This document shows, piece by piece, positions 12,880 to 62,228 of a DNA stretch of 64,000 nucleotides. Position numbers and translations under genes: made by a program. This DNA comes from Siminovitchia terrae (lineage in GTDB: Bacteria; Bacillota; Bacilli; Bacillales; Bacillaceae_C), in assembly GCF_003605405.2 (NCBI RefSeq), contig NZ_QYTW02000015.1, positions 1 to 64,000 of the forward strand, in the 5' to 3' direction. The notes beneath the pieces were generated by a model that had not been told where the DNA came from, did no database searches, and worked only from the letters and a program-made list of their open reading frames with translations. Every line of letters begins with the position of its first letter. Positions within the stretch are counted from its first letter, which is position 1.

Positions 12880-13069
12880 ATCAACTGCGCCTTGGCGTAT
12901 TTGCGCCCAGATTTTATCGAGCTCCGCTCGATAAATTTCCTCTGAAAATCTGATGCATCCGCCGGAGGCTTTAACTTTATTCAGCCGGGGTTTAAACCCC
13001 CACTGATTGGAATACCAATAGGCATTCATCTCACCACTTACTGAAGTGGGTGACTTCTGCTGAATGAAG
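12880..13069 (-). repeat. family-A repeat, copy 1
   Basis: 190-bp element upstream of yugI. Its plus-strand start (GGATCAACTGCGCC) and end (TGAATGAAG, then TTAAAC) match the family. Minor differences: GATGCATCCG replaces GTGGCATCCG, and GGTTTAAACCCCC replaces GGTTTGAACCCCC. Confidence 0.93.
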
Positions 13070-13116
13070 TTAAACTTTCAAGAAACATGAAATCATGTGT
13101 TTAAAATAACTAAATA

Positions 13117-13160
13117 GGGGCAATACTTAATGTAGGACATTCCAATATTCCCCCTTTTTT
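13117..13160 (+). terminator. orphan terminator-like hairpin
   Basis: An imperfect stem between GGGGCAATACTTAATG and CATTCCAATATTCCCC is followed by six T residues. No plus-strand gene precedes it within several kilobases. Confidence 0.45.
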
Positions 13161-13169
13161 ATTAAATGG

Positions 13170-13197
13170 TCGTGGCTTTTTCAAGCCACGAATTTTT
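13170..13197 (+). terminator. orphan terminator-like hairpin
   Basis: A perfect 9-bp stem (TCGTGGCTT/AAGCCACGA) with a 4-nt loop and a following ATTTTT. It lies between family-A copy 1 and yugF, with no upstream plus-strand gene; it could close a small RNA or attenuate yugF. Confidence 0.5.
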
Positions 13198-13344
13198 CTT
13201 TGTTAAAAAGCAGGTTCGACATACAGAAAGTACAATTGAAGCAGTCATCCAGACTTCATTTGCGAAAGCAGCTGAAAATTTGCCACATCAACATTTACCT
13301 CGCGTTTTTTCTATTTTCGTGGGCCTATCAAGGAGGGAACTAGT

Positions 13345-14166
13345 TTGCAAGGAAAAAAAGTATGGATCAACGGCATACGTCTGTATTATGAAGAAAGTGG
13401 AAGCTCCAGCACTGCACAAACAATCGTTCTTCTACACGGCTTTTTATCATCCGCCTTCAGTTTCCGCATGCTTGTCCCTTATTTAGAAAAAGACTTTCAT
13501 GTTCTTTCGATAGACCTCCCTCCTTTTGGATACAGCGACAAAACAAAAAAGTTTCATTACTCCTATAAAAACATGGCAGCGACAGTTTTACGGCTGCTCG
13601 AGGTAGTCAATGTGGAGCGTTTTTCAGTGGCTGGACATTCGATGGGAGGACAGATTGCCCTGAACATGATACTACAGTCACCAAAAAACATCGATAAAGT
13701 CATCCTTCTTTCAAGCTCCAGCTATTATTCACGGGCAAAAAGGCACCATATACTCGCTTCTTATCTACCTTTTTTCCCCATCTTCATCAAGCATTACTTA
13801 TCAAAAACGGGTGTGATTGGTAATCTTAAAAGTGTTGTCTATGACCAGACTTTAATCGACAGCTCCATGATCGAAGGTTATGCACAGCAATTTGAAGATA
13901 CGAGGATTTTTCCTGCACTGGCCAGACTACTCAGACATCGGGAAGGCGATTTGTCAATAAAGGCTCTTCAGAGCATCCAAACACCTTGTCTATTAATTTG
14001 GGGAGACCATGATAAAATTGTTCCCTTAAACATCGGAAAAAGGCTTGCACGGGATTTGCCACATGCTCGGCTCGTTGTTTTAAAAGAAACAGGACACCTC
14101 GTTCCAGAAGAAAGACCAAAGGAAGTTTATCAAGAAATCCAATTTTTTCTCAATTTGAGTACTTGA
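13345..14166 (+). CDS. yugF: alpha/beta hydrolase
   Basis: 273 residues of alpha/beta-hydrolase fold. Nucleophile elbow GHSMGG (S99), oxyanion HGF (31-33), acid in WGDHDKIVP and catalytic His in TGHLVPEERP are all present, with a small cap domain between. It is close to B. subtilis YugF by its HGFLSSAFSFR, DLPPFG and RHREGDL segments. Substrate unknown. TTG start 8 nt after AAGGAGG. The next gene, patB, begins 66 nt downstream on the same strand and may be cotranscribed. Confidence 0.9.
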   Translation: MQGKKVWINGIRLYYEESGSSSTAQTIVLLHGFLSSAFSFRMLVPYLEKDFHVLSIDLPPFGYSDKTKKFHYSYKNMAATVLRLLEVVNVERFSVAGHSMGGQIALNMILQSPKNIDKVILLSSSSYYSRAKRHHILASYLPFFPIFIKHYLSKTGVIGNLKSVVYDQTLIDSSMIEGYAQQFEDTRIFPALARLLRHREGDLSIKALQSIQTPCLLIWGDHDKIVPLNIGKRLARDLPHARLVVLKETGHLVPEERPKEVYQEIQFFLNLST

Positions 14167-14232
14167 TAGCTGACACTCTTGCTACAAATAGCTATAATTG
14201 GGGCTAAAATGAGCAGGAGAGGTGTTCGACGA

Positions 14233-15399
14233 TTGATTAACTTTAATGAAAACATCGACCGAAAAAATACTCGGTCCCTAAAATGGGACGGCATGAAAAA
14301 TCTATTCGGCAGGGAAGACCTTCTCCCCATGTGGGTAGCAGATATGGATTTCCGCCCACCAAAGGAAGTTAGTGATGCTTTAAAAGAGAAAGTGGATCAT
14401 GGAATATTCGGCTATACAATCGTCACTGAAAGTTTAAACGAAGCAATCTGCGATTGGACAAACACACGCCACGACTGGAGCATCAAACCTGAGTGGCTGC
14501 TATACAGTCCCGGCGTCATTCCATCCGTACATACAGCCATTCAGGCATTTACTGAGCCCGGCGATAAAATTCTGGTCCAGTCACCTGTGTACACACCTTT
14601 TTTCCATATGATTGAAAGAAATTCAAGAGAGGTGGCTATTTCACAGCTTATTTTGAAAAACGGACGCTATGAAATTGATTTCGACGATTTCGAAAAGAAA
14701 CTCGGAAGCGGAGTGAAAATGTTATTATTAAGCAGTCCGCACAATCCTGCTGGAAGAGTTTGGGAAAAGGAAGAATTGATCAAAATAGCAGAGCTTTGCA
14801 AGAAATATAATGTATTGATCGCTTCTGATGAAATTCACGCTGATCTTGTCCCAGCACCTCATAAGCATATTCCAATTGCTTCATTAGATGAGTCATTTGC
14901 CGACATCACCTTGACATTCATGGCTCCGACAAAGACCTTTAACCTGGCTGGAGTTCAGGCTTCTTTTATGGTGGTACCCAATAAAACACTGCGAACGAAA
15001 ATAGCGGCTGTTCAGGCAAGCGACGGCTTTTCCATGCTGAATACATTCGGCTCGATTGCAATGGAGGCCGCATACAGGCATGGGGGTGCTTGGCTTGATG
15101 AAGTTTTGGAATATATCCGTTCCAACATTGATTATGTGAAAGAAACAATCAGTTCTCAGCTTCCTGATTTAGATGTGATTGATCCTGAAGGGACCTACCT
15201 CGTTTGGATCGACTGCCGCAAACTCGGACTTTCTGATGCAGAACTAAAGAAGCGCATTCTAGAAAAAGGAAAACTAGCTTTGAATTTCGGGCATGCCTAC
15301 GGTCCTGGAGGAGAAGGTTTTGTCCGGATGAATGTAGCATGCCCTAAAGAAACAGTGATTGAAGGCGTGAAAAGGCTCCAAATGGCATTAGGCAAATAA
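14233..15399 (+). CDS. patB: PLP-dependent cystathionine beta-lyase/aminotransferase
   Basis: 388 residues, fold type I, MalY/PatB group. K234 in APTKTFNLAG is the PLP lysine, D199 lies in SDEIHADL, and the PMWVADMDF and SSPHNPAGR motifs are intact. PatB cleaves cystathionine and Cys-conjugates to thiols, pyruvate and ammonia. The TTG at 14233 (MINFNEN) is chosen: GAGGTG lies 8 nt upstream and the length then equals B. subtilis PatB; the longer reading from 14179 adds unrelated residues. Confidence 0.92.
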   Translation: MINFNENIDRKNTRSLKWDGMKNLFGREDLLPMWVADMDFRPPKEVSDALKEKVDHGIFGYTIVTESLNEAICDWTNTRHDWSIKPEWLLYSPGVIPSVHTAIQAFTEPGDKILVQSPVYTPFFHMIERNSREVAISQLILKNGRYEIDFDDFEKKLGSGVKMLLLSSPHNPAGRVWEKEELIKIAELCKKYNVLIASDEIHADLVPAPHKHIPIASLDESFADITLTFMAPTKTFNLAGVQASFMVVPNKTLRTKIAAVQASDGFSMLNTFGSIAMEAAYRHGGAWLDEVLEYIRSNIDYVKETISSQLPDLDVIDPEGTYLVWIDCRKLGLSDAELKKRILEKGKLALNFGHAYGPGGEGFVRMNVACPKETVIEGVKRLQMALGK

Positions 15400-15488
15400 G
15401 TTTGACAGGGGTTGTCAAGAAAATCATAAAAATTGATTTTGTATGACGGCCCTTTTTTATTTTCTAAGAACGTTCTTTTTCCCCATCT

Positions 15489-16019
15489 TTATTTCGCCGG
15501 CTTTTTGTTTTTCGTTATTTCCCCACAGGCTATCCTGTACCCTGAGCTTCCGGCGGGCTGAGACATTCCGTCATCAGCTTGTTCATGTATAACAAGCGAA
15601 GTCCCGTCTTTTGTATAAAGAGAGGTTTTCTTTTCCTCAAAGGTGACAGCATTCGCTGTCATATTCACCTTGGCTGTACCGTCCTCGTCCACTATGAGAT
15701 TCGGCAAATCTCCTGCATGCGATCCCTTTTGATTGAGCAAACCATGCTCTTTTTTATCCGGATTAAAATGGTCTCCTGCTGATTCAAAATCTGGCGGCTC
15801 ACATGTTCCTTTTTCATGGATATGCATGGCAAGCTCACCCGCAGGCAGTCCTTTTAATTCGCCTTTCAGTTTTATCCCCTTTGCCTGCTCTTCAAAATTG
15901 ATTTTTCCAATCGAATCGCCATCCGAATTTTTCATATCCACATCAAATTTCTTTGGCGGCTGATTCATACATCCTGCCAAAATAAAAAAAGCAAAGATCA
16001 TAAAGCCCAGTATTCTCAT
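15489..16019 (-). CDS. Cu,Zn superoxide dismutase-like lipoprotein
   Basis: 176 residues. The lipoprotein signal peptide ends in LAGC (lipidated Cys about residue 17). The SOD domain keeps every metal ligand I can place: HIH (AMHIHEKGTC), GDHFNP, the Zn ligands in EHGLLN and GSHAGDLPN, and the last Cu ligand in VIHEQADD; the disulfide Cys pair (GTC and IACG) and the active Arg in GYRIACG are also present. B. subtilis YojM is reported to lack some copper ligands, so this copy looks more likely to be active. RBS GGAGGGAG 5 nt before the ATG. Confidence 0.88.
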   Translation of the reverse strand: MRILGFMIFAFFILAGCMNQPPKKFDVDMKNSDGDSIGKINFEEQAKGIKLKGELKGLPAGELAMHIHEKGTCEPPDFESAGDHFNPDKKEHGLLNQKGSHAGDLPNLIVDEDGTAKVNMTANAVTFEEKKTSLYTKDGTSLVIHEQADDGMSQPAGSSGYRIACGEITKNKKPAK

Positions 16020-16243
16020 AGTCTCCCTCCTGCCTCTTTTTTCCCATTCTTTCCATTGCGCAGAAGGTTTATTCAGGGATGACAGAGGGTGTACAGAGTA
16101 CTCAAAGCCATCTGTAGTGAATAAACTGTACCCTCGTTCAAAGTTCACCTACATTGAAAAACATAAGCAGTTTCTCGTTTTCAAATGAAAACCTCTCCCA
16201 TTGATTTGGATTGAACAATAGGATACTTTTTATATGCTGGGTT

Positions 16244-16280
16244 CTCCATGGTAAATAAATTTACCATGGAGGGCTTTTTT
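16244..16280 (+). terminator. strong orphan terminator
   Basis: A perfect 12-bp stem (CTCCATGGTAAA/TTTACCATGGAG) with a TAAA loop and GGCTTTTTT tail, oriented on the plus strand. No plus-strand coding gene lies upstream; the nearest (patB) ended 845 nt earlier. A possible promoter TTGAAC-N16-TATGCT (16211-16238) lies just before it. Confidence 0.7.
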
Positions 16281-16303
16281 ATGCCGCCCAATTCGATAAA
16301 AAA

Positions 16304-16322
16304 AAGCACCAATATGGTGCTT
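16304..16322 (-). terminator. terminator of small membrane protein gene
   Basis: On the minus strand AAGCACC-ATAT-TGGTGCTT is followed by a run of eight T. It overlaps the stop codon of the gene ending at 16321. Confidence 0.8.
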
Positions 16323-16545
16323 ATATGTGCTTGTGCTTGCTGTTTCTTTCGCGATTAATCTGTTCTTCGATCTCTTTCGTTTTTAGTTCCTGCTTCTTTG
16401 ATACTTTTTTGATCACGATAAAAGTCAAAACACAGGCTACGCCAAAAATGGCCATTGAAATAGCTGCTGGAATATATTCCGATTTGTCTTCCGGAAAATA
16501 TAAAAACGGCATGTATAATACAAATGACTGTAATATGGACAGCAC
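16321..16545 (-). CDS. small membrane protein, unknown
   Basis: About 74 residues: two hydrophobic helices (FVLYMPFLYF and ISMAIFGVACVLTFIVI) and a charged cytoplasmic tail (KKVSKKQELKTKEIEEQINRE) that could be coiled. No recognised family. The ATG at 16554 abuts the ribosome site AGAGGAAGGG; the GTG at 16545 is 9 nt away and is the more likely start. Confidence 0.6.
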   Translation of the reverse strand: MLSILQSFVLYMPFLYFPEDKSEYIPAAISMAIFGVACVLTFIVIKKVSKKQELKTKEIEEQINRERNSKHKHI

Positions 16546-16634
16546 GTTAAACATCCCTTCCTCTTGATTGCATTACTTTCATTATACCCATATAACAGCA
16601 TCACTTCCAATAGAGGAAAGGTGGCAAAAGTGTG

Positions 16635-16656
16635 AAAGCCGCCAAGCGGCGGCTTT
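16635..16656. terminator. GC-rich hairpin after the cyclophilin gene
   Basis: A 9-bp stem AAAGCCGCC/GGCGGCTTT with a short AAGC loop, 110 nt beyond the cyclophilin stop. The T run on the minus side is only three, so termination is uncertain. Confidence 0.4.
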
Positions 16657-16766
16657 ATCAAAATATGCGTAAAACTTTGGGACAAGCCTCTGCCCTCTCT
16701 CAATTGAGCGAAATCTGAGATAATCGTGCGAAATCGCTCATTCGTTGTGCAAACACCTTCCGAACA

Positions 16767-17474
16767 TTATTCTTTAATGATATCGATACTTTCGATTGCA
16801 ACATCTTCGACCGGCTTGTCTGCCATGCCTGTTTTTACATTGGCAATTTTGTCAACGACATCCATGCCCTCGATGACTTGTCCAAAAACTGTATGGCGAT
16901 GGTCAAGATGCGGTGTTCCGCCATGTTCCATATAAGCATCGACGATTTCATTCGGAAAACCAGCCCTCTCCATTTGCCCCTTCATTCCAGGATCCATATG
17001 GCTGTTTTGGACGATAAAAAATTGGCTGCCGTTTGTTCCCGGTCCAGCATTTGCCATTGAAAGTGCTCCGCGAAGATTGAAAAGGTCCACAGAAAATTCA
17101 TCTTCGAAAGGTTGGCCGTAAATGCTTTCTCCGCCTCTTCCTGTACCGGTCGGGTCACCGCCCTGGATCATGAAATCTTTGATAACACGATGAAAAATGA
17201 TTCCATTATAATATCCATCTTTACTGTGCTTTATGAAGTTTTCCACTGTTTTAGGAGCTTGTTCAGGGAACAATTTTATTTTGATTGATCCAAGATTCGT
17301 ATTCATTTGAACGACTTTCTCATTTTCTGCAACTTCTGTTGTCAATTGCGGGTAAGCAACTTGTTCTGACATGTTTATATCTCCTTTTCTCTTTTCTATT
17401 TTTTCTTTTTGGCCACATCCGGCCGCCAAAAAGAAAATTATCCAACAAATCATTAAAAGATTCCACTTTTTCAA
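16767..17474 (-). CDS. cyclophilin-type peptidyl-prolyl isomerase, lipoprotein form
   Basis: 235 residues. TTG start 8 nt after GGAGG, then a lipoprotein signal peptide ([20 protein letters not shown]), so the long form should be anchored outside the cytoplasmic membrane. The cyclophilin domain follows with [25 protein letters not shown] and HTVFGQV; it includes an insert of about 25 residues ([21 protein letters not shown]) common in Firmicute lipoprotein PPIases. An internal ATG at 17372 has an even better ribosome site (AAAGGAG, 8-9 nt) and would give a soluble form of 201 residues. Confidence 0.88.
17372..17388 (-). promoter_or_regulatory. internal ribosome binding site and start of a soluble cyclophilin
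   Basis: On the minus strand AAAAGGAGATATAAACATG lies in frame inside the lipoprotein cyclophilin, 34 codons after its TTG start and beyond the signal peptide. Translation from here would leave out the membrane anchor. Confidence 0.6.
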
Positions 17475-17580
17475 CTTACAAACCTCCATTGATTACTTTA
17501 CAGTATATAAGCTGAAAAATCATCATTCTTTCATTTTGACCATATGTCAGCCATAATAGTAACATAGAGGTGATCATTAC

Positions 17581-17991
17581 ATGGAAAATGGACAAATTGT
17601 CAGAGCTTTTAGAAAAACAGGGGCGTACATAGGAGAACTTACTAAGGTCCAGCAAGATGTCTGTATTGTGCGTGTACTGGCTGTTTTAAAACATCCGATG
17701 CAAGGCAATCTCCATCATCCGCGAGAAGTGGAAGTCCCTTTCTTTCATGAAAGGAAAGCCCATGCCTTTCGAGAACAGATCCAGGTTCCATCCAATATGG
17801 TTCGGCCATATGAAGATGATATTCCCAAGTACGAAGACAGTTTGCAGGACGCAGTGCAAAAACTCCATGATGAACTGGCCTCCAAACCTGAAAATCCCTT
17901 CAGCAAACGCAGTCTTGAAGCCTTAAAAATTTTAATTCCCGAATATGAATTAATGTATGGCATTGAATGGCCGAACATTGCCAAAAGCTGA
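17581..17991 (+). CDS. kapB: KapB, activator of the KinB sporulation pathway
   Basis: 136 residues with the KapB pattern: VRAFRKTGAYIGEL, VLAVLKHPMQGNLHHP, VPFFHERKA and MVRPYEDD. In B. subtilis KapB is needed for phosphorelay signalling through KinB. Despite its old name, I see no lipobox here. No kinB lies beside it in this window, although patB and yuxJ, its usual neighbours, do. RBS GAGGTGATC, ATG at 17581. Confidence 0.88.
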   Translation: MENGQIVRAFRKTGAYIGELTKVQQDVCIVRVLAVLKHPMQGNLHHPREVEVPFFHERKAHAFREQIQVPSNMVRPYEDDIPKYEDSLQDAVQKLHDELASKPENPFSKRSLEALKILIPEYELMYGIEWPNIAKS

Positions 17992-18014
17992 ATCTGTCGA
18001 TTCGGCTTTTTTTC
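17986..18014 (+). terminator. kapB terminator
   Basis: Nine-base-pair stem AGCTGAATC/GATTCGGCT, 4-nt loop, T run; it starts inside the stop codon region of kapB. Confidence 0.88.
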
Positions 18015-18122
18015 ATGGTTTCGGAGAATGTCCACCCAGCATGCGTCTAAGTTGAATATTTTAACAACTAAAGTATACTATATTTAGATACACGAAATAA
18101 ATAACAATGAGAAGGTGTTATT

Positions 18123-19452: not shown

Positions 19453-19519
19453 TAAACCTTAATGTGAACAAAATATTTCATCTAATTTTATACTTTATTA
19501 ATTGCTTAAAGAAAAGGGG

Positions 19520-27188: not shown

Positions 27189-27257
27189 CCTTACCTCCAC
27201 CCTTCCAAAAAGCATGTAATTAAATTATATCAAGTGATGAGTTTATTGCTAGGGATA

Positions 27258-27537
27258 AGAAAAACGCAGGCTCCTTGATCATCGATGTGCAGACTGGAGT
27301 GCTTCTTACGAGATAATTGGAGAGTGCCTGCTTATCGCAAAGCTAGACGAGCGCTGCTGAAAGGCGTAGTTTGCCTTCAGCAGCGCTTGGCTTAATCCTT
27401 ACGCCGATTGCACCCGGCTGGCTCAAGCAGCAACATCCTGCCGCTTCGCCTGCACTAGCACATCCCTGTGCGTCACAGCCAGACAACACGGCGACGATAG
27501 GCGCTGGAGCTGGACAACAAAGCACTTTGTTCAAAAT
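27258..27537. repeat. family-B GC-rich repeat
   Basis: About 280 bp. Shares GTACAGACTGGAGTGC-like (here GTGCAGACTGGAGTGC), GAGAGTGCCTGCTTATCG, TAGTTTGCCTTCAGCAGCG and the terminal AGCTGGACAACAAAGCACTT with the copy at 38695-39089. Its right end touches family-A copy 2. Confidence 0.85.
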
Positions 27538-27538
27538 G

Positions 27539-27728
27539 ATCAAATGCGCCTTGGCGTATTTGCGCCCAGATTTTATCGAGCTCCGCTCGATAAATTTCCT
27601 CTGAAAATCTGTGGCATCCGCCGGAGACTTTAACTTTATTCAGCCGGGGTTTGAACCCCCACTGAATGGAATACCAATAGGCATTCATCTCACCACTTAC
27701 AGAAGTGGGAGACTTCTGCTGAATGAAG
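27539..27728 (-). repeat. family-A repeat, copy 2 (tandem with copy 3)
   Basis: 190 bp, near-consensus. Its plus-strand right end TGAATGAAG runs directly into ATCAAATGCGCC of copy 3 with no intervening base, and it is the only copy not followed by TTA. Confidence 0.95.
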
Positions 27729-27918
27729 ATCAAATGCGCCTTAGCGTATTTGCGCCCAGATTTTATCGAGCTCTGCTCGATAAATTTCCTCTGAAAATCT
27801 GTGGCATCCGCCGGAGGCTTTAACTTTATTCAGCCGGGGTTTGAACCCCCACTGATTGGAATACCAATATGCATTCATCTCACCACTTACAAATGTGGAA
27901 GACTTCTGCTGAATAAAG
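27729..27918 (-). repeat. family-A repeat, copy 3 (tandem with copy 2)
   Basis: 190 bp; end reads GAATAAAG then TTAAAC. The tandem arrangement fixes both borders of the element to the base. Confidence 0.95.
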
Positions 27919-31624: not shown

Positions 31625-31814
31625 ATCAAATGCGCCTTGGCGTATTTGCGCCCAGATTTTATCGAGGTCCGCTCGATAAATTTCCTCTGAAAATCTGCGG
31701 CATCCGCCGGAGGCTTTGACTTTATTCAGCCGGGGTTTGAACCCCCACTGAATGGACTACCAATATGCTTTCATCTCACCACTTACAGAAGTGGGAGATT
31801 TCTGCTGAATGAAG
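31625..31814 (-). repeat. family-A repeat, copy 4
   Basis: 190 bp, between yuiD and a terminator. Differences: GAGGTCCGCTCG in the hairpin arm, ACTACCAATATGCTTTC. Followed by TTAAAT. Confidence 0.95.
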
Positions 31815-32340: not shown

Positions 32341-32534
32341 ATCAAATGCGCCTTGGCATATTTACCCCTAGATTTTATCGAGCTCCGCTCGATAAATTTC
32401 CTCTGAAAATCTGTGGCATCTGCCGGAGGCTTTAGCTTTATTCAGCCGGGGGTTGAACCCCCACTGAATGGAATACCTACCAATATGCTTTCATCTCACC
32501 ATTTATAGAAGTGGGAGAATCCTGCTGAATGAAG
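32341..32534 (-). repeat. family-A repeat, copy 5
   Basis: 194 bp; a 4-base insertion (TACC) gives GAATACCTACCAATATGC. Several other substitutions (GGCATATTTACCCCTAG), so an older copy. Followed by TTAATT. Confidence 0.93.
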
Positions 32535-33738: not shown

Positions 33739-33927
33739 ATCAAATGCGCCTTGGCGTATTTGCCCCCAGAATTTATCGAGCTCCGCTCGATAAATTCCCT
33801 CTGAAAATCTGTGGCATCCGCCGGAGGCTTTAACTTTATTCAGCCGGGGTTTGAATCCCCACTGAATGGAATACCAATAGCATTCATCTCACCACTTATA
33901 GAAGTGGGAGATTTCTGCTGAATGAAG
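33739..33927 (-). repeat. family-A repeat, copy 6 (truncates DinB gene)
   Basis: 189 bp. Its left border falls exactly where the DinB coding sequence stops; followed on the right by TTAAAT. Confidence 0.95.
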
Positions 33928-34767: not shown

Positions 34768-34945
34768 ATCAAACACGCCTTGGCGTATTTGCGCCCAGAT
34801 TTTATCGAGCTCCGCTCGATAAAATCTGTGGCATCCGCCGGAGGCTTTAACTTTATTCAGCCGGGGGTTGAACCCCCACTTAATCGAATACCAACAGGCA
34901 TTCATCTCACCACTTACAGAAGTAGGAGACTTCTACTGAATGAAG
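34768..34945 (-). repeat. family-A repeat, copy 7 (short subtype)
   Basis: 178 bp. Lacks the internal segment TTTCCTCTGAAA between the TCGAGCTCCGCTCGA hairpin and ATCTGTGG, as copy 11 does. Flank TTAGAA differs from the usual TTAAA. Confidence 0.93.
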
Positions 34946-38693: not shown

Positions 38694-38694
38694 A

Positions 38695-39089
38695 TAAGAA
38701 AAGCGCAAGCGCCTTGCTCATCGACGTACAGACTGGAGTGCTCTGACGAGATAAAGGATAAGGAAGTGCGAGAGTGCCTGCTTATCGGCGACAAGCATAA
38801 GACGGGCGCTGAAGAAGGTGTAGTTTGCCTTCAGCAGCGGTTGGCTTATGTCCTCGAGCGATGGCACTCGCAGCTGGACAACACGGAGACGAAGGCCGCC
38901 TCAAGCCGCCGGCTTCGGTGGCACTAGTACTTCCTGTACGTCGGCAGGCTCAGGACGCGACGTCCTGTCGCTTCGCTTGCACTAGTACTTCCTGTACGTC
39001 GAAGCCGATGTAGACTACGTAGGAAGAAGCGCGAAGTCTGCTAGTCGATAGGCGCGGGAGCTGGACAACAAAGCACTTTGTTCAAAATG
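38695..39089. repeat. family-B GC-rich repeat, long form
   Basis: About 395 bp between yumC and yutM. Begins AAGAAAAGCGCAAGCGCC, ends AGCTGGACAACAAAGCACTT. Contains an internal short duplication of CACTAGTACTTCCTGTACGTC. Confidence 0.88.
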
Positions 39090-39116
39090 TTAAACCTTTT
39101 CTTATCTTGAAAATAT

Positions 39117-39599: not shown

Positions 39600-39790
39600 A
39601 TCAAATACGCCTTGGCGTATTTGCGCCAAGATTTTATCGAGCTTCTCTCGATAAATTCCCTATGAAAATCTGTGGCATCCGCCAGAGGCTTTAACTTTAT
39701 TCAGCCAGGGTTTGAACCCCCACTGAATGGGAATACCAATGTGCTTTCATCTCACCACTTACAGAAGTGAGAGACTTCTGCTGAATGAAG
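39600..39790 (-). repeat. family-A repeat, copy 8 (abuts yuzB stop)
   Basis: 191 bp with ATACGCC, GCTTCTCTCG and GCCAGAGGC variants. The next three plus-strand bases, TTA, are the yuzB stop codon. Confidence 0.95.
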
Positions 39791-44029: not shown

Positions 44030-44219
44030 ATCAAATGCACCTTGGCGTATTAGAGCCTAGATTTTATCGAGCTCCGCTCGATAAATTTCCTCTGTAAATC
44101 TGTGGCATCCGCCGGAGGCTTTAACTTTATTCAGCCGGGGTTTGAACCCCCACTGAATGGAATACCAATAGGCATTCATCTCACCACTTACAGAAGTGAG
44201 AGACTTCTGCTGAACGAAG
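44030..44219 (-). repeat. family-A repeat, copy 9 (abuts yutF stop)
   Basis: 190 bp; AATGCACC, TATTAGAGCCTAG and GAACGAAG variants. The next bases, TTA, are the yutF stop codon. Confidence 0.95.
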
Positions 44220-44984
44220 TTAAATGTTCCATTCTTCAAGAGTATCCAGTACATGTGTCGGTTGACTTTTCTTTTCCTTTAATGCTTCCCTTGTCGTTAC
44301 TCCCGTATGAACGAGGAGCGTGTCCATTCCAATATTAATGCCCGCCAAAATATCCGTGTCGTAATTATCTCCAACCATCAGAGTTTTTTCCTTGATAGAT
44401 CCTAGCACTTTTAAAGCCTGCTCCATGATGATGCGATGTGGCTTGCCTATAAATATGGGTTCCGTTTGAGTCGAAATAGATACGACCGACGTAATTGCTC
44501 CGTTACCTGGAAGCAATCCCTTCTCCGTCGGCAGCGCTATGTCCCCATTCGTGGAAAAGAACATAGCTCCTTTCCTAACAGAAAGGCAAGCTTTCGCTAG
44601 CTTTTCATACGTTATTTTCCGATCTATTCCAATAATAACCGCTTCTGGATCCTCGTCTGTTAACTTAAGACCTCTCTCTTCCAAGGCAGACATAAGCCCT
44701 GTTTCTCCAATCACATAGATTGAAGTATTAGGATGATGATCATACAAATAGTTGGCCGCTGCCATGGAGGTTGTAAATACCTCTTCCTCTTTGGCTTCCA
44801 TTCCCAAATGATTTAAATGTTCAGCCACTTGCCTAGGGGTTTTCGAGGAATTATTAGTTACAAACAAAAAAGGAATATCTTTTTTTCTCAAGCGAGCTAC
44901 AAACTGGACAGCCTCTGGAATGCTCTCTTTGCCTCTGTACATCGTACCATCCAAGTCAATCAGATAGCCTTCATACTCCTTCAC
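44220..44984 (-). CDS. yutF: NagD-family HAD phosphatase
   Basis: 254 residues. HAD motif I LIDLDGTM (D10, D12), motif II VTNNSS, and motif IV GDNYDTDILAG are intact. Broad phosphatase on nucleotides or sugar phosphates. GTG start at 44984, 8 nt after GGAAGGGTGG, as in B. subtilis. Confidence 0.92.
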   Translation of the reverse strand: MKEYEGYLIDLDGTMYRGKESIPEAVQFVARLRKKDIPFLFVTNNSSKTPRQVAEHLNHLGMEAKEEEVFTTSMAAANYLYDHHPNTSIYVIGETGLMSALEERGLKLTDEDPEAVIIGIDRKITYEKLAKACLSVRKGAMFFSTNGDIALPTEKGLLPGNGAITSVVSISTQTEPIFIGKPHRIIMEQALKVLGSIKEKTLMVGDNYDTDILAGINIGMDTLLVHTGVTTREALKEKKSQPTHVLDTLEEWNI

Positions 44985-45865: not shown

Positions 45866-45940
45866 CCCCGTAAAAAAATGGCCAAAATTATTATGCTTGG
45901 CTATTTTTTATGGGGTGCGTTGGAATTAACAGGCGTTTTC

Positions 45941-46123
45941 GCTTTTCTATTGTCAAGCTACAGATGGCTGAGGCTCGAGGTCGCTTCGATCCATCCATTA
46001 AAAGTCAAAGGACGACTTCATTGGATGGCTCTCCGACGGACAGGATGTCCTAGTGCCGCCGGCGCCACAGGACGTGGCCACATTAGACGGCCTGCGCTTG
46101 TCGCCCCTGCGCGGCCGTCTTCC
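45941..46123 (-). repeat. family-C GC-rich repeat, tandem unit 1
   Basis: 183-bp unit starting GCTTTTCTATTGTCAAGCTA. Contains a hairpin of CATCCATT and AATGGATG around GACTTTGACTTT-like arms and the palindromic GTGCCGCCGGCGCCAC. Confidence 0.88.
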
Positions 46124-46312
46124 GCTTTTCTATTGTCCAGCTACAGACGGCTGGGGCTCGAGGTCGCTTCGATCCATCCATTGAAGTCAAAGGACGACTT
46201 CATTGGATGGATCTCCGACGGACAGGATGTCCTAGTGCCGCCGGCGCCACAGGACGTGGCCACATTAGACGGCCAGCGCTTGTCGCCCCTGAGCGGCCGT
46301 CTTCCGCTTTTC
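46124..46312 (-). repeat. family-C GC-rich repeat, tandem unit 2
   Basis: 182-bp second unit, over 95% like unit 1 by eye, plus a final GCTTTTC. The next base starts the yutD stop codon. Confidence 0.88.
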
Positions 46313-46588
46313 TTATTTATCAATCTTTTTCAATACAAAGTACGCACAGCCGAAGTTACAGTACTCATATAGATATTCCGACAAGGTACTGATTTTTGTA
46401 TCGAATGATGCCTTATGATTGTCGTCTGAGAAAAAGCCCTTCAGGCGTAGCTGACCATATCCCCAGTCACCAACAATGTAATCATACTTCATCAATATAT
46501 CGCTGAAGCGGGCTTTCAATGCTTCCTCATTGAAGCCGTCCCTGAATTCTTCAACGAGCTCATATTGCTTATTCTGTATCGCAACCAA
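46313..46588 (-). CDS. yutD: YutD family protein
   Basis: 91 residues with KYDYIVGDWGYGQLRLKGFF and YLYEYCNFGCAYFVL, DUF1027. Conserved, unknown function. TTG start with GGGTGAG close upstream. Confidence 0.88.
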   Translation of the reverse strand: MVAIQNKQYELVEEFRDGFNEEALKARFSDILMKYDYIVGDWGYGQLRLKGFFSDDNHKASFDTKISTLSEYLYEYCNFGCAYFVLKKIDK

Positions 46589-55759: not shown

Positions 55760-55792
55760 ATTCTCACCTGCTTTCAGTGTAGCATGATTCAA

Positions 55793-56053: not shown

Positions 56054-56242
56054 ATCAAATGCGACTTGGCGTATTTGCACCCAGATTTTATCGAGCTCCG
56101 CTCCAATAAATTTCCTCTGAAAATCTGTGGCATCCGCCGGAGGCTTTAACTATATTCAGCCGGTTTGAACCTCCACAGAATGGAATACCAATAGGCATTC
56201 ATCTCACCACTTACTGAAGTGGGAGACTTCTGCTGAATGAAG
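56054..56242 (-). repeat. family-A repeat, copy 10
   Basis: 189 bp, diverged: GCGACTTGG, CCGCTCCAATAAA (hairpin arm broken) and GCCGGTTTGAACCTCC (two G lost). Followed by TTAAAA. Confidence 0.93.
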
Positions 56243-56321
56243 TTAAAATAAGTGCTGTTGAATATTTACTAAAAAGCTGGTAGAATTTTCTACGTATTTT
56301 TATTGAAAGGAAGGTGATTTC

Positions 56322-56489
56322 ATGAGTGATTTAGAACAAATTAAACTCATGAAGCCACCATTTCCCAAGCTACGATGTTTTTCTTTCAAACCTATATTAC
56401 CTAGGGAGGATTATTTTGAAGAAAAACATCGGAAACAAAACAGCGAGCTTATTATTACTGATTGTATTAGTAGGATTTCCACAAATTAG
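56322..56489 (+). CDS. short upstream reading frame, possible leader peptide
   Basis: 55 codons with a strong ribosome site (GAAAGGAAGGTGATTTC) and ATG. It overlaps the start of the MFS gene in another frame by 74 nt. Sequence MSDLEQIKLMKPPFPK... resembles no family. It could couple or regulate translation of the transporter. Confidence 0.5.
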   Translation: MSDLEQIKLMKPPFPKLRCFSFKPILPREDYFEEKHRKQNSELIITDCISRISTN

Positions 56490-57588
56490 CGAAACCATTT
56501 TTAGCCCATCGTTACCTTCCATCGCGGAAGCATTTGAAACTTCTATGAGTGATGCACAGCTTACGATGAGTATATACTTTATTGCTTTTGCTTTCGGGGT
56601 ATTTTTCTTTGGGCGTATATCCGATAAAATCGGTCGTCGCAAGGCTATGCTTTATGGCGTGTTTTTATATTTTGTTGGTAATGTGCTTTGTTTAGCAGCA
56701 AATGAAATGGTGGTTTTATTAGTCGCACGCTTTGTTCAAGCGTTTGGCGCAAGTGTTGGTTCTGTCATAACACAAACAATTTTACGTGAAAGCTTTTCTG
56801 GCGTTGAGCGTCATAAATTGTTCGCTCAAATTTCAGCTGCCCTTGCCTTCACCCCTGCCATTGGTCCATTAATCGGTGGCTTTACCGATTATTATTTTGG
56901 CTTTCAAGTCGTGTTTTGGGTGTTAGTCTCTATGAGCGTTATTGTATTTTTCTATGCTTTTTTACGCTTACCTGAAACAGCACCTTCTTCAATCGAAATG
57001 AAGCCTCTACTGCCGATAATAAAGGGCATGATTACAAATGCTCGTCTATGGCGCTATGGTGTATTAATAGGCGGTATTAACGGCGTATTATTTAGCTATT
57101 ATACCGAGGCGCCGTTTATTTTTACGCAATACTTTTCACTAACAAGTGCGATGTATGGGTTTCTAGGCATTATCGTTGCACTCGCTTCTATTGCAGGTGC
57201 GATGCTGTCTAAACGTCTTGTTATCCGCATAACTCCTGAGAAGATTATCTTACGCGGGTTAACCATTATGCTCATCGGTACATTGGTCTCCACTTCGGTA
57301 CATTTTTTACCGATTTCATTACAATTGCCAACCATGATAGTTAGTGTGTTTATTATATTATTTGGTACAGGTACCGCTTTACCAAACTGTCTAAGCCTAG
57401 CACTCATTGACTTTCAAGATGTCATTGGTTCAGCGAGTGCGATATTCAGCTTGGGCTATTATTTACTCGTGAGCATTATAACCTATGGTATGAGCGTTTT
57501 TCATAATGGCACAGTCCTTGCGATGCCACTATATTTTTTAATGTTGGGGCTTGTTATGCTGCTAATAAGCTCACGATTACAACAATAA
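56416..57588 (+). CDS. Bcr/CflA-type MFS efflux transporter
   Basis: 390 residues, 12 helices. Motif A GRISDKIGRRKAM after helix 2 and the PSLPSIAEAF opening are typical of Bcr/CflA drug exporters. TTG start after AGGGAGG. Codon use is more AT-rich than the yut/yun genes, and it lies in an accessory stretch, so transfer is likely. Confidence 0.87.
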   Translation: MKKNIGNKTASLLLLIVLVGFPQISETIFSPSLPSIAEAFETSMSDAQLTMSIYFIAFAFGVFFFGRISDKIGRRKAMLYGVFLYFVGNVLCLAANEMVVLLVARFVQAFGASVGSVITQTILRESFSGVERHKLFAQISAALAFTPAIGPLIGGFTDYYFGFQVVFWVLVSMSVIVFFYAFLRLPETAPSSIEMKPLLPIIKGMITNARLWRYGVLIGGINGVLFSYYTEAPFIFTQYFSLTSAMYGFLGIIVALASIAGAMLSKRLVIRITPEKIILRGLTIMLIGTLVSTSVHFLPISLQLPTMIVSVFIILFGTGTALPNCLSLALIDFQDVIGSASAIFSLGYYLLVSIITYGMSVFHNGTVLAMPLYFLMLGLVMLLISSRLQQ

Positions 57589-57616
57589 AAAATGGATCCC
57601 GAATGGGATCCATTTT
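57589..57616 (+). terminator. MFS gene terminator
   Basis: AAAATGGATCCC/GGGATCCATTTT stem with GAAT loop and T run. Confidence 0.9.
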
Positions 57617-57830
57617 TTGTTTTGCCCCTTACTAATTTAGACACGAGAATTCAAGATTATAGAAACCCCTACAACCTTCTGAAAGTGACTGGCATTTTCC
57701 AGTTGTTTGCAAGAACCGGACCCCAAAAATACAAAATCAGACGGAAGCATATCAAATTCAATATGCCCCGCCTGACCTATTTTATGGGCTCTTAGACAGC
57801 CCCGCCTTAGTAAAAAAAGCATCAAATGTA

Positions 57831-58880
57831 TTACATTTCTCCGCTTAATTCAACTAGAATTTTTGCTTGAGATTTATCGTTTGTTAATGCCTCGAATCCT
57901 TCTTCTACAATGTTCTCTAATTCTATTTGAGATGTAATGATACCTTGGGGTTTTAATTGACCTGTACCCATTAAGTCGATTGTTTGTCGGAATGTTGTTG
58001 GTGTATAAGCAATTGTTGAAGTCACTTTAACACCAGTATTTGTTAATTGCATCGGATTCCATTCGATTGGGCGTGCAAAAATAGAGACAATAACCATTGT
58101 ACCGCGAGCACGTGTTACATCAATCGCTTGTTTGAAGGTTGGAGCGACACCAGCAACTTCAAATGAAACGTCTACACCATCAGGGATAATAGCCTTTACC
58201 GCTTCAACAGGGTTTACTTCTCCTGAATTGTAAACATGTGTTGCGCCAAGCTCTTTTGCTTTCGCCAAACGTTGCTCAGATAAGTCGAATACAAAGATTT
58301 TACTTGCGCCAGCTGCTTTTGCAGCAATAGTAGTTAATAAACCAATCGGACCAGCACCAAATACCGCCACTGTATCGCCAAACTGCATGTTAGCTTCTTT
58401 AACTGCTTGTACAGCAACTGCTGTGGGCTCCACTAATGCACCGTCTTGTAAGGTCATACTTTCAGGCAATTTATAAAGGTGTTTTTCGCCTACATTAACA
58501 TGAGAAGCAAAGCCACCGTCTGAACCTAGTCCGATAAATTGGAATCCGTCATACGCATCAACGTCTTCTGGTTTGTTACCGTAAGTGTACATTGGATTAA
58601 TTGCGACACGATCACCAACTTCTACAGATGTTACGCCTTTACCTACTTTTTCTACTATACCTGCAAATTCGTGCCCCATTGTTAGTGGTGCTTGCTGCCC
58701 AGTTAGTGGGTGCTGTTCTTCGACCGGAATAAATACTGGACCTTCTTGATATTCATGTAAATCAGATCCACAAATTCCTGTCCAAGCGACACGCACAGTT
58801 ACCTCTTTATCTTTCATTTGCTTTAGTTTGCGTTCCTCCACACGAATATCCTTTTCACCATACCATACTGCTGCTTTCAT
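57831..58880 (-). CDS. bdhA: zinc-dependent 2,3-butanediol dehydrogenase
   Basis: 349 residues, MDR family. Catalytic zinc ligands in GICGSDLHEY and GHEFAGIVEKVG; NAD fold GAGPIGLLTTIAAKAAGA. The structural-zinc cysteines usual in ADH are missing, as in (R,R)-butanediol dehydrogenases such as B. subtilis BdhA, which interconvert acetoin and 2,3-butanediol. ATG at 58880, 8 nt after GGAGG. Confidence 0.87.
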   Translation of the reverse strand: MKAAVWYGEKDIRVEERKLKQMKDKEVTVRVAWTGICGSDLHEYQEGPVFIPVEEQHPLTGQQAPLTMGHEFAGIVEKVGKGVTSVEVGDRVAINPMYTYGNKPEDVDAYDGFQFIGLGSDGGFASHVNVGEKHLYKLPESMTLQDGALVEPTAVAVQAVKEANMQFGDTVAVFGAGPIGLLTTIAAKAAGASKIFVFDLSEQRLAKAKELGATHVYNSGEVNPVEAVKAIIPDGVDVSFEVAGVAPTFKQAIDVTRARGTMVIVSIFARPIEWNPMQLTNTGVKVTSTIAYTPTTFRQTIDLMGTGQLKPQGIITSQIELENIVEEGFEALTNDKSQAKILVELSGEM

Positions 58881-59267
58881 CATTAATGCCTCCAATATTA
58901 GTTTTATTTAACTCTGAAAAAGTAATAAACTACTTATCTTGTTTAGACATTATTTATCTTTTTAAACATCATTCTACGTGTTATTGAAATAACATCTCCT
59001 TTTTCCACACCATTTGAGCCAACTGGACTACTAACTAAAAAAACTTAGACAGTGTTCCTTCAGATACACGTTACACAGTAACTTGGCTTTCCGCAGGACC
59101 TCCTTGATAAGCACTATCTGGTGCAAAAAAATTTACCATCCACGTGAATTGAAATACTTGAATCATGATATATACAATCCATTTATCTTCAATTCGAGAT
59201 AATCATAACACATAATATCTCCCCCTTCAACAAATTAAGACCCTTGTCCAACATGGTTCATTCCGAA
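58881..59267. other. intergenic region upstream of bdhA
   Basis: About 390 nt, AT-rich, holding the bdhA promoter region; the palindrome-rich stretch near 58935-58975 could bind a regulator. No gene seen. Confidence 0.35.
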
Positions 59268-59417
59268 TCTATTTTATCGAGCTCCGCTCGATAAAATCTG
59301 TGGCATCCGCCGGAGGCTTTAACTTTATTCAGCCGGGGTTTGAACCCCCACTGAATAGAATACCAATATCCAATCATCTCACTACTTACTAAAGTGAGAG
59401 ACTTCTGCTGAATGAAG
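59268..59417 (-). repeat. family-A repeat, copy 11 (truncated, short subtype)
   Basis: About 150 bp. The left 30 bp are gone; the rest is intact but lacks the TTTCCTCTGAAA segment as in copy 7. Followed by TTAAAA. Confidence 0.9.
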
Positions 59418-59855
59418 TTAAAAATTACCTTCTGTTAAATCCTTATATTCCTATTAGGCGAAGATATATACATAACACACATCTCAACAAAAAAAGCTTC
59501 TAACAAGATCCCTCATTTCACTAAAACTGTACAGTTTAAGAAATACCTTGTCGAAGAAGGGGCAACTCAAAATTCACCAAACTTCCCATCATTTATTCGT
59601 GTCGAACACCGCGTATAGATCCACCTCAATGAAGTTTCATTTTTTACAATCGATATAAAGCTCATGCTTGTTTTTTAGACAGCCTATCATCTTAATTAGT
59701 ATGGCGTAATCTAATTTTCCGGCTGTTTCACGATTTCTTTCATCACTGTACGGGTCACTTCATCCCCCAATAAGTAAGCGCTTGTGATCTTTAGAATCAG
59801 AAATTATAATAAAAATGAAACAGCGTTAACAAGCTTTAAGTTGGAGGAGATAATC
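59418..59855. other. intergenic region without gene
   Basis: About 440 nt, AT-rich. A partial cre-like GTAAGCGCTTGTG lies near 59772-59784. No gene recognised. Confidence 0.35.
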
Positions 59856-60323
59856 ATGACAGATTTCACTATACGCCTTGCCACCCCCGAGGACCGCAAG
59901 GAGATTTTCAACGTTCATCGTGATTCAGTCCACAACCTCTGTTCAGAGCAATACACGGAGGAACAGATCAACATGTGGCTGGATGGGAGGGATCCGGATG
60001 TTTACCTCCCAGCGATAGAACGCGGGGAGCTTTGGGTCGCCGTGTCAGACGGGTCAATCCTTGGTTTCGTTGAAGTGGAAGGCAACGAGATCACCAAGCT
60101 TTTTGTCTCCGGAGCAGCAGCGGGGGCTGGAGTTGGTAAAGCCTTGATGATGAAGGCCATCGGGTATATTCGACAGGATGGAAAGGTACGAATTTATTTA
60201 GAAGCCACAACCACTGCACGGGATTTCTATCGCAAATTGGGCTTCGTTGAGACGGGAACAGGAACTTTCTCGCGAGGAGGAGCGGCAGTTTCGGTGGAAA
60301 TCGTCAAGATGGAGCTTGTCTGA
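59856..60323 (+). CDS. GNAT-family N-acetyltransferase
   Basis: 155 residues. Fold strands and acetyl-CoA loop with AGAGVGKALMMKAI (Q/RxxGxG/A type), and FYRKLGFVETG near the C-terminus. Substrate unknown. ATG at 59856 after GGAGGAG. Confidence 0.85.
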   Translation: MTDFTIRLATPEDRKEIFNVHRDSVHNLCSEQYTEEQINMWLDGRDPDVYLPAIERGELWVAVSDGSILGFVEVEGNEITKLFVSGAAAGAGVGKALMMKAIGYIRQDGKVRIYLEATTTARDFYRKLGFVETGTGTFSRGGAAVSVEIVKMELV

Positions 60324-60462
60324 ATCCAAGCAATCCATTCAAAAGGACATACACATTCTCAAACCGAGATTGCCTTTAGTAGATGAGGTCTAAATTTTAC
60401 ATGTTCCAGAAAAATAAATTTAAAGACAAAGGTCTCAGCACTTGGCACACAAAGATGAAAAT

Positions 60463-60514
60463 AAAAAAGTAACTCCCAAATGATTGCTGAGCTATCTGGG
60501 TGGTTACTTTTTTG
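60463..60514 (+). terminator. terminator
   Basis: AAAAAGTAAC/GGTTACTTTTT stem with inner CCCA/TGGG; a near copy of this hairpin and its flanks occurs at 61334-61370. Confidence 0.75.
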
Positions 60515-60718
60515 TTGCGACAAGTAATGCTAAGAAGACATAAGTCCCTAACCGTGGAGAATAAGCTGCTCACACTTAGAATTTTGTATGCTATTGCTTC
60601 CCCTTAATGAATGTCCGAATCCCTAAAAAGCATTGTATAAGCAATTAATATGCGCTATACTTTTTTAAAAAATTTCCCTGAGGAAAGTTTTTTTACTTAA
60701 TACAAATGAGGTGGCGCA

Positions 60719-61204
60719 ATGCTCAATTTTTCTCAAATTTTTTGGGAGGGTCTTATTCTATCTTTTATTTTTTCATTTGTTGTTCTAGCCTCGCTATACT
60801 ATAATCCTAGATTATGGTTAAACGATTATCCAAAGGATATTCAGAAAGCTTCGCTTCCAAAGACAAAAAAAGAGAAAACACAATTTCTATTAATTGGCCT
60901 ACCACTGATCGTTATATTACTTATTATCCCTTATCTATCTTCATTACACTACAGTGATAATATTAGTTTTTTATCGTTATTTCTCCACTTCTTTTTAATT
61001 TTTTCTGTAATAAGCTTGGTTGATCTGCTATTTATCGATTGGCTTATTTTCTGCTATATTAGCCCTAAATTTATTGAAATTCCAGGTACTTCCTCATTAA
61101 ACAGTCATAAGAGTTATCTTTTTCATTTAATAGGCTTTTTAAAAGGCATCATCATATATGGGATATTTAGCTTCATTTTGGCCGGAATTCGATACATCGT
61201 TTAA
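60719..61204 (+). CDS. membrane protein, unknown
   Basis: 161 residues, four hydrophobic helices, very AT-rich. No family recognised. RBS GAGGTGG, ATG at 60719. It sits between two copies of one terminator, suggesting local duplication or capture. Confidence 0.65.
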   Translation: MLNFSQIFWEGLILSFIFSFVVLASLYYNPRLWLNDYPKDIQKASLPKTKKEKTQFLLIGLPLIVILLIIPYLSSLHYSDNISFLSLFLHFFLIFSVISLVDLLFIDWLIFCYISPKFIEIPGTSSLNSHKSYLFHLIGFLKGIIIYGIFSFILAGIRYIV

Positions 61205-61333
61205 ACTATTTCGGTGAGTGAAGGCAGGTCGACCGCCGGTCTCTAGTTCGCTCTTTGTGGTCAACATGAAAAAATGTTCCAACACTTTTCGTCAGGCAAT
61301 AGCTCTTTAGAAGCCAGTTCACAAAGATGAAAA

Positions 61334-61370
61334 TAAAAAAGTAACTACCCAATGGTGGTTATTTTTTTGT
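61334..61370 (+). terminator. terminator (copy of the one at 60463)
   Basis: AAAAAAGTAACTACCC stem with GGTGGTTATTTTTTT. Flanks CAAAGATGAAAATAAAAAAG and GTTGCGAC match the first copy. Confidence 0.7.
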
Positions 61371-61412
61371 TGCGACAGTATCGCATTACTTCACACTAGT
61401 ATTAGGGAATAT

Positions 61413-62000
61413 CTAATCATTTAATCCCTTTCCATTTAAAATGTGCTGCATATATTTCTCGATTCTTGACTCCCGTGTTACAGATTTTTTGGGTGCTGAA
61501 AAATATAGGCTGTATGCCCTTTGCCTTCCTGGTGTCAGTGCCTCAAAAGCAGTTTTTAAATCAGGAATTTCCTCGAATTTATTTTGAAGTTCTTTAGGAA
61601 TACTGAATTCTGTATTCTTTTTTACTGTCAATCCGGCTTTTTCAATCTCAATAGCCTGATGAATATAGGTTTTCAAAATAGTTTCCAACTCAACTATTTC
61701 CTGAAGGTTGTTAAACCGAATCTGGCGCGCCGCTTGTACATTCTCCGTTTGCTGGACTAGAATCCCGTGGGTATCCTTCAACAAGGCGCCTTTTGGAAAC
61801 AAAAGCGCACAATATTCTTTAAACCCTTGTATCAACACAATGTTTTTCTTCTCAAACGTGTAACAGGGGTTCCTCCACTTAAATTCTTCGGACAACTCAC
61901 AGTCAAGAATGATATTTCTCAACTTCTCATACTCTTTCTTCCACTTCTTTGCTTTACTTAAAAATTCTTCAACTTTTGGATTCGTTTCACTATTTTTCAT
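61413..62000 (-). CDS. ydeI: YdeI/DUF1801-type protein
   Basis: 195 residues with EEFKWRNPCYTFEKKNIVLIQGFKEYCALLFPKG, typical of the YdeI family, and a C-terminal YdeI helix (LTPGRQRAYSLYFSAPK). Function unknown. RBS GAGGGGTGA. Copy 12 of family A begins 40 nt upstream, so its promoter must lie in or beyond the repeat. Confidence 0.85.
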   Translation of the reverse strand: MKNSETNPKVEEFLSKAKKWKKEYEKLRNIILDCELSEEFKWRNPCYTFEKKNIVLIQGFKEYCALLFPKGALLKDTHGILVQQTENVQAARQIRFNNLQEIVELETILKTYIHQAIEIEKAGLTVKKNTEFSIPKELQNKFEEIPDLKTAFEALTPGRQRAYSLYFSAPKKSVTRESRIEKYMQHILNGKGLND

Positions 62001-62039
62001 TAAGGATCACCCCTCTTGCATTTTTTCGAAAATCAGGAA

Positions 62040-62228
62040 ATCAAATGCGCCTTGGCGTATTTGCGCCCAGATTTTATCGAGCTCCGCTCGATAAATTTCC
62101 CCTGAAATTCTGTGGCATCCGCCGGAGTCTTTAACTTTATTCAGCAGGGTTTAAACCCCCACTGAATGGAATCTTAATATGCATTCATCTTACCACTTAC
62201 AGAAGTGTGAGACTTCTGCTGAATGAAG
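62040..62228 (-). repeat. family-A repeat, copy 12
   Basis: 189 bp; CCCCTGAAATTC and GCAGGGTTTAAACCC variants. Followed by TTAAAT. Confidence 0.95.

Follow-up and report, generated by a model that had tools for sequence, protein, structure and literature searches.

A 190-bp folded repeat of Siminovitchia terrae that probably moves like an IS200/IS605-type single-strand transposon

Introduction

Elements resembling the palindrome-associated transposable elements (PATEs) have been reported in Geobacillus. The PATEs themselves were described in Haloquadratum walsbyi, and their ends match those of IS605-type elements found in the host genome or in related ones (PMC3119063). Here, we report on family A, a noncoding DNA repeat of 190 bp that is present in 12 copies in a 64,000-nt stretch of the Siminovitchia terrae genome (contig NZ_QYTW02000015.1, positions 1 to 64,000; hereafter, the window). 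Like PATEs, family A is free of a transposase gene and of inverted terminal repeats, has near-terminal palindromes, and is associated with a short targeting oligonucleotide (PMC3119063). It differs from PATEs in being one homogeneous family of an estimated ~600 copies, in its strong replication-strand bias, in a single long-range helix of which the target is part, and in having no IS605-type partner among the loci examined. PATEs are the described group that family A behaves most like, and the long-range helix and a loose guide-target pairing set it apart from them.

Insertion sequences of the IS200/IS605 family, such as IS608 and ISDra2, share with family A a target that is kept 5' of the element, a guide at the foot of a hairpin that pairs with the cleavage site, a bias toward the lagging strand, and insertion without duplication (PMC5934647, PMC5371812, PMC6006769). 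In contrast to them, family A carries neither tnpA nor tnpB, shows no guide at its left hairpin, and has a single internal guide, placed in a 15-pair long-range helix, where those elements have two guides of 4 nt. Repetitive extragenic palindromic (REP) sequences and REPINs are likewise structured single-strand repeats of high copy number and are tied to HUH enzymes (PMC3116915, PMC6006769); family A differs in its length (190 bp versus units of 21 to 65 nt) and its fixed 5' target, and no REP-associated tyrosine transposase (RAYT) was seen that is bounded by family A. The bcr1 repeats of the Bacillus cereus group are 147 to 167 bp long, folded, present in 39 copies on average and up to 130, and associated with a TTTAT motif, and by this description they resemble family A; their mobility has been described as possibly site-specific-recombination-like (PMC6542083, PMC2267715). 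No description of family A was found in the literature on PATEs, IS605 miniatures, bcr1, single-strand transposition and Siminovitchia repeats, as covered by mostly nonsubscription papers.

Family A is probably a nonautonomous single-strand transposon with the mode of action of IS200/IS605 elements, mobilized in trans by a Y1-type (HUH) transposase. Its target, insertion without duplication, strand bias, fold and guide-target link all amount to IS200/IS605-like behavior, and the mechanism put forward in the initial annotation of the window, that of a nonautonomous IS200/IS605-type element, is therefore well supported; the autonomous partner that this reading calls for was not among the 60 Y1 loci examined. 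Under the proposed mechanism, the minus strand of family A would be exposed on the lagging-strand template at the replication fork and would fold into two domains. The transposase would cut 3' of TTTAA on the left and after TTGAT on the right, and the cut single strand would circularize and then insert 3' of another TTTAA, leaving the target unduplicated. One internal segment, CTGAATAAAG-TTAAA, would pair with the left end, and its TTAAA part would also pair with the target; the segment would thus help to pick the site. The enzyme class, the circularization, the pairing in single-stranded DNA at integration, and a mobilizer that has been lost or lies elsewhere are what we infer from the observations below. 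If this reading is true, an estimated ~2% of the genome would consist of a DNA parasite that is oriented by replication, finds its sites partly by base pairing, and lacks a visible mobilizer. Its insertions, hundreds in number and in some cases altered in both guide and target, would be a natural record from which site choice by single-strand transposons could be read. Retargeting of IS608 by guide changes or longer pairing has so far been an engineering result (PMC5934647).

Results and Discussion

Copies, ends and target sites

The source genome (G000; Bacillaceae) comprises 5.3 Mb in 68 contigs. It was compared with its congeners in Siminovitchia, namely Bacillus sp. HF117_J1_D (G001), S. 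fortis (G002), B. norwichensis (G003), S. thermophila (G004) and S. fordii (G005), and with further genomes cited by their labels. A BLASTN search of the window with the copy at 27539 to 27728 as the query recovered 12 copies (E values of 3e-97 to 9e-54), all on the minus strand, 11 of which aligned end to end with 88.9 to 100% identity to the query. The positions assigned to the 12 copies in the initial annotation, as well as its count of 11 near-full-length copies, were reproduced, and the element ends and the hairpins CCACTT/AAGTGG, TTTATCGAGC/GCTCGATAAA and GGGG..CCCC were also found. The copies at 31625 to 31814, 33739 to 33927, 56054 to 56242 and 62040 to 62228 were confirmed by end inspection, as was a copy with a small deletion at 34768 to 34945, which is preceded by TCTAA. 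The copy at 12880 to 13069 (95.8% identical to the query) is preceded by TTTAA and has GTTGAT at its end, while that at 32341 to 32534 is preceded by ATTAA. The copy at 59268 to 59417 is without a right end, its alignment covering element positions 1 to 159 only.

Ends and target words were tabulated for 49 full-length copies of G000, drawn from the window, contig C23 and 40 kb of contig C12. The word directly 5' of the copy was TTTAA in 44 cases, ATTAA in 2, and TTGAA, TTGAT and TCTAA in 1 each, and the right end was TTGAT in 47 of the 49; most window copies follow TTTAA and end in ...ATTTGAT. For the copy at 44030 to 44219, the TTTAA pentamer at which the left end would be cleaved lies outside the element at 44220 to 44224 and the TTGAT right end lies at 44030 to 44034, both on the minus strand. 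The single copy preceded by TTGAT belongs to a head-to-tail pair in the window. It occupies 27539 to 27728 and follows directly after GCATTTGAT, the right end of the adjoining first copy at 27729 to 27918, which is itself preceded by TTTAA. This exact right-left junction is compatible with a circular single-strand intermediate, but the pair is old, its two copies being 95.3% alike.

Orthologous sites in relatives allowed filled and empty alleles to be compared. At the copy at 39600 to 39790, the filled allele reads CCGATGTTTTAA, the element, and then TGAAACCGATTGG; the clean empty alleles read CCGATGTTTTAACGAAACCGATTGG in S. fortis and CCGATGTTTTGATGAAACC in S. fordii, and Bacillus sp. HF117_J1_D and B. 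norwichensis carry decayed orthologous copies. Likewise, a B. norwichensis copy and the empty site of Bacillus sp. HF117_J1_D share the same TTTTAA. A third case is provided by two assemblies named Fredinandcohnia onubensis, which are treated as separate species in the genome collection: one is filled after ...CTATTAA (L308) and the other is empty (L306), with flanks that are 99.6% and 95.2% identical. No target duplication was seen in any of these three comparisons, and inspection of the element ends showed no terminal inverted repeat, both in agreement with the initial annotation; the alignments indicate that it inserts 3' of a fixed pentamer without duplicating it. The site of the 44030 copy is occupied in both Bacillus sp. 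HF117_J1_D and B. norwichensis. At the places orthologous to the 32341 and 56054 copies, B. norwichensis has no copy, and the flanks (at 32341, the right flank) are too diverged for clean cases.

One detail of the empty sites weighs against the proposed mechanism: filled and empty alleles disagree in the base directly 3' of the element, both at the F. onubensis site and between the 39600 copy and S. fortis. We read this difference as a mutation; at 39600, the empty allele of S. fordii agrees with the filled allele at this base. An ordinary miniature inverted-repeat transposable element (MITE) of a DDE transposase would have the size, the copy number and the lack of genes that family A has, yet it is given practically no probability by the missing terminal inverted repeats, the unduplicated target at empty sites, and the extreme strand bias described below.

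Folded structure and the long-range helix

When the consensus was folded together with TTTAA as single-stranded DNA, a check suggested by the initial annotation, a strong two-domain structure was obtained (-47.2 kcal/mol; z score of -7.9), and 0 of 200 shuffled sequences folded as well. The consensus as RNA gave a z score of -5.9. In the first domain, TTTAACTT.ATTCAGC pairs with GCTGAAT.AAGTTAAA located 70 to 80 nt downstream, forming 15 pairs around one mismatch with three hairpins inside; through this helix, both the left end and the target outside the element are paired with the internal segment. The second domain has GCCT..GGCG at its start and CGCC.AGGC at its end and leaves GCATTTGAT as a tail. 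Subterminal hairpins are present at both ends in the DNA fold as well as in the RNAalifold prediction. The local GGCG/CGCC hairpin that had been assigned to the right end is better regarded as an alternative pairing, since the minimum-energy DNA fold pairs that CGCC with the GGCG of the GCCTCCGGCGG motif.

On the minus strand of the 44030 copy, nucleotides 44210 to 44219 (element positions 1 to 10) form the left-end arm of the long-range helix, and the left hairpin region follows (positions 17 to 41; 44179 to 44203). The internal arm CTGAATAAAG (positions 86 to 95) is at 44125 to 44134, and the internal guide TTAAA (positions 96 to 100), complementary to the target, occupies 44120 to 44124 at the 5' foot of the right structured domain (positions 101 to 185; 44035 to 44119). 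The two arms are supported by the DNA fold, RNAalifold and a count of pair changes; the left hairpin region rests on the two folds, the right domain on both of these and a structure model, and the guide on the two folds and the guide-target analysis below.

The long helix was found unprompted by RNAalifold (columns 4 to 15 with columns 96 to 107) in 20 short-form copies hand-chosen from Siminovitchia and other genera, with compensatory changes in 15 of all 36 pairs. Within the helix, 94.6% of the cells were paired and 5 of 12 pairs had changed on both sides. None of these measures was reached in 500 shuffles, although kinship alone can lift related sequences above shuffles without any structure. 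Sliding the partner by one column reduced the pairing to 40 to 45%. The arms read CTTGAATCAGC/GCTGATTCAAG in G030 and CTTATTTCA/TGAAATAAG in G028, and the helix carries compensatory changes across genera. This long-range pairing between the left end and the internal segment, together with the TTTAA 5' of the copies and the strand bias, had been omitted from the initial annotation.

Strand bias with replication

The strand that is richer in G than in C is the lagging-strand template. According to local GC skew, 57 of 58 copies and fragments in the G000 sample lie on the G-rich strand, the exception being a 47-bp fragment, while the TTTAA word itself is distributed almost evenly (1,092 occurrences on the G-rich strand versus 1,188 on the other). 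Five further genomes gave 55 of 60 copies on the G-rich strand (G032, 21/24; G030, 25/26; G040, 4/5; G028, 4/4; G024, 1/1), these 60 being the fetched subset of 76 listed places, and another five gave 19 of 20, fetched from 87 places. In total, 131 of 138 copies in 11 genomes were on the G-rich strand. The 7 copies on the opposite strand and a skew of less than 0.02 at 3 of the 20 copies in the last set count against the proposed mechanism. In IS200/IS605 elements, orientation is described as mirroring the direction of replication (PMC5371812).

Gene direction does not account for this bias, because mechanically called open reading frames (ORFs) often oppose copies that are still on the G-rich strand. 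The upstream ORF was opposed in 17 of 57 G000 copies. The two neighboring ORFs point in different directions at 27 copies, of which 26 were on the G-rich strand; the 4 copies opposed by both neighbors were all on it as well. Four of the 57 copies start directly after the end of an ORF (window positions 39790 and 44219 and C23 positions 144358 and 173883), as can be expected when the TTTAA target holds a TAA stop codon. These four copies and the strong RNA fold could also point to a functional structured RNA or gene-regulatory element whose structure acts in transcripts. This explanation is very improbable, considering that copies are present or absent at orthologous sites and that their orientation tracks replication rather than neighboring genes. 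Furthermore, no Rfam family reached its gathering score at the repeat, with two subthreshold matches only.

Guide-target pairing

The target is complementary to the five bases that close the internal arm, which usually read TTAAA. The association between the two was analyzed in 153 copies with a well-located helix, obtained from 287 stretches via 197 distinct records and 162 unique ones. A helix was not visible in 68 of the 287 stretches (22 of them from G030), and the rest of those dropped were repeats; the helix was located with bases inside the element only, not with the target. Complementarity as high as that observed was reached in 0 of 5,000 global shuffles and in 4 of 5,000 shuffles within genomes. 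An earlier covariation run with a poor arm locator, superseded by this one, had given 0.800 paired for the inner arm versus 0.739 in shuffles (0/2,000 as high) and 0.798 for the target versus 0.751 (10/2,000 as high). Individual guide changes point in the same direction: both copies with G at guide position 1 are at TTTAC, while C was found at that target position in 2 of 145 copies with the usual guide base, and two of the three copies with the guide TTACA are at AGTAA and GGTAA targets, compared with 2 of 144.

A strict rule by which the guide sets the target was rejected on the table of guides and targets. Several counts weigh against a larger role of the guide in the proposed mechanism. 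Only 15 of the 78 guide cells that depart from TTAAA have the matching target base. With repeats still included, the guide TGAAA (19 copies) was found at TTTAA 9 times and at TTTCA 3 times, and 20 of 22 copies with the guide TCAAA were at TTTAA. In addition, a TTAAA guide at the left hairpin, as expected from IS608, was not seen on inspection. As the link with the target is significant yet departing guides are mostly unmatched, the pairing contributes to the choice of site and does not dictate it; the guide-target link, as read from these alignments, is statistically significant but loose. The empty F. onubensis allele contains the target ATTAA, and the inserted copy has TTAAT as its guide, which may have changed after insertion.

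A stronger version of this idea is a self-addressing element, in which one guide within the 15-pair helix would pair with both its own left end and the target, a changed guide would lead to a matching new target, and the enzyme would be something other than a standard Y1 transposase or would act wholly from another replicon. We consider this unlikely.

Copy number and distribution

An initial scan of G000 gave 598 and 607 candidates in two runs, of which 40 and 13 were scored. Contig C23 (352.6 kb) holds 41 copies or fragments and the 40 kb of C12 hold 5. Extrapolation puts the total at ~600 copies (~620 from C23 alone), or ~2% of the genome, a figure that is an estimate from a contig chosen for already having matches. 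Both ends of C23 (positions 1 to 61 and 352539 to 352597) fall inside family A copies, and the repeat may therefore break the assembly.

Among the congeners, the initial scan counted 139 candidates in Bacillus sp. HF117_J1_D, 348 in B. norwichensis and 23 in S. fordii. The genome search gave no DNA match to family A in S. fortis or S. thermophila, and the latter has a single weak match to the structure model. A model of the right domain matched 14 of 34 genomes of the family and, with stricter filters, 15 of 299 genomes sampled across the order, representing 8 of 117 genera. In a set of 80 named loci centered on one gene of the window, F. onubensis (two) and Niallia endozanthoxylica are among those with matches. 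Two copies in G156 are 99.5% alike. A longer right domain with extra hairpins (~164 to 168 nt, compared with 106 to 109 nt) is found in G127, G230, G254, G276, G317, G040, G026 and, in part, G205, and whole copies of 245 to 249 bp occur in G127 and in one copy of G276.

The plasmid and phage collections searched with family A contained no match. Exact-pattern searches of IMG/VR returned 0 and 8 stretches, of which 3 (L369, L372 and L374) were relatives according to the model. All three contigs are classed as viral, and L369 and L374 represent one and the same copy, whose guide segment has been lost.

Search for the mobilizer

Of the four matches to Y1 transposases in G000, one is an intact IS200-like gene and another its broken relative; the remaining two are a RAYT-like gene (70.9 bits versus an NCBIfam cutoff of 80) and a fragment. 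The survey was extended to 60 loci with PF01797 matches in 25 genomes, all of which were compared by DNA and 44 also by the structure model. None was bounded by family A ends. A full IS605-family element sharing both ends, which the initial annotation had proposed to look for, was thus not found within these loci, and the lack of any such Y1 element had been named there as evidence against its reading; loss of the mobilizer or its supply in trans would look alike. Strict membership in IS200/IS605 does not follow from the data, because the search turned up no Y1 gene in an element with family A ends. A family A copy lies within 1.5 kb of four Y1 loci (L032, L082, L083 and L477) as a separate copy that does not bound the gene. 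The intact IS200-like gene (L031) was dropped as a candidate mobilizer, since comparison of its flanks with those of L077 and L079 suggests that its element starts after TTGAT and has ends unlike those of family A.

Family A occurs in 7 of the 15 loci with TnpB matches in G000, with 6 different copies among them. The tnpB elements were rejected as carriers of family A: at the loci that were read (L064, L065 and L073) the copies are not ends of the tnpB element, and the others were compared by BLAST. The left hairpins of a tnpB element of the same genome (L065) and of a tnpA/tnpB element (L463) resemble that of family A, and the right end of the former does not. No match to the right end of family A was found among the loci examined.

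The missing partner counts against the proposed mechanism and leaves room for two other enzymes. The first is a RAYT, which would disperse family A as a large REP/REPIN-like sequence. RAYTs are also single-strand HUH enzymes (PMC6006769), and RAYT-type genes that belong to one group and have open frames occur in G000, Bacillus sp. HF117_J1_D, B. norwichensis, G032 and G022, all of which bear copies, while S. fortis and S. thermophila, with no copies or one weak model match, have no Y1 match. These genes are, however, flanked by their own GGGGTCTGACCCC-type palindromes instead of family A ends; G030, G156 and G276 bear copies without a Y1 match, and the Y1 matches of copy-bearing S. fordii are IS200-like remnants. 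We therefore regard dispersal by a RAYT as improbable. Open RAYT-like genes with flanking palindromes of the GGGGTC..GACCCC type were noted at L033 (contig C13 of G000), L082, L083, L160 and L161, in genomes that also carry family A. At L082 and L083, one family A copy lies ~800 bp away, beyond another gene, and the RAYT loci are not flanked by family A.

The second is a single-strand-acting enzyme other than a recognizable Y1 transposase. It would explain why no autonomous element with family A ends was found and why G030, G023, G156 and G276 bear copies without a PF01797 match, even though those of G156 are up to 99.5% alike. In contrast, the 5' target, the lack of duplication, the lagging-strand bias and the guide pairing are all traits ascribed to IS200/IS605 elements (PMC5371812, PMC5934647). 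Most of the copy-bearing genomes without a Y1 match are draft assemblies, and the mobilizer may have been lost or may lie on another replicon. We give such an enzyme the same low probability as a RAYT, and mobilization by a Y1-type transposase acting in trans remains our preferred explanation.

Other repeat in the window

A second dispersed repeat of ~180 bp occurs in the window at 45937 to 46313, 38694 to 39094 and 27255 to 27543. It partly matches the Rfam Bacillaceae-1 RNA (RF01690) at 46037 to 46102, 46219 to 46284 and 38933 to 38998, and it has many matches in S. fortis, a genome without family A.

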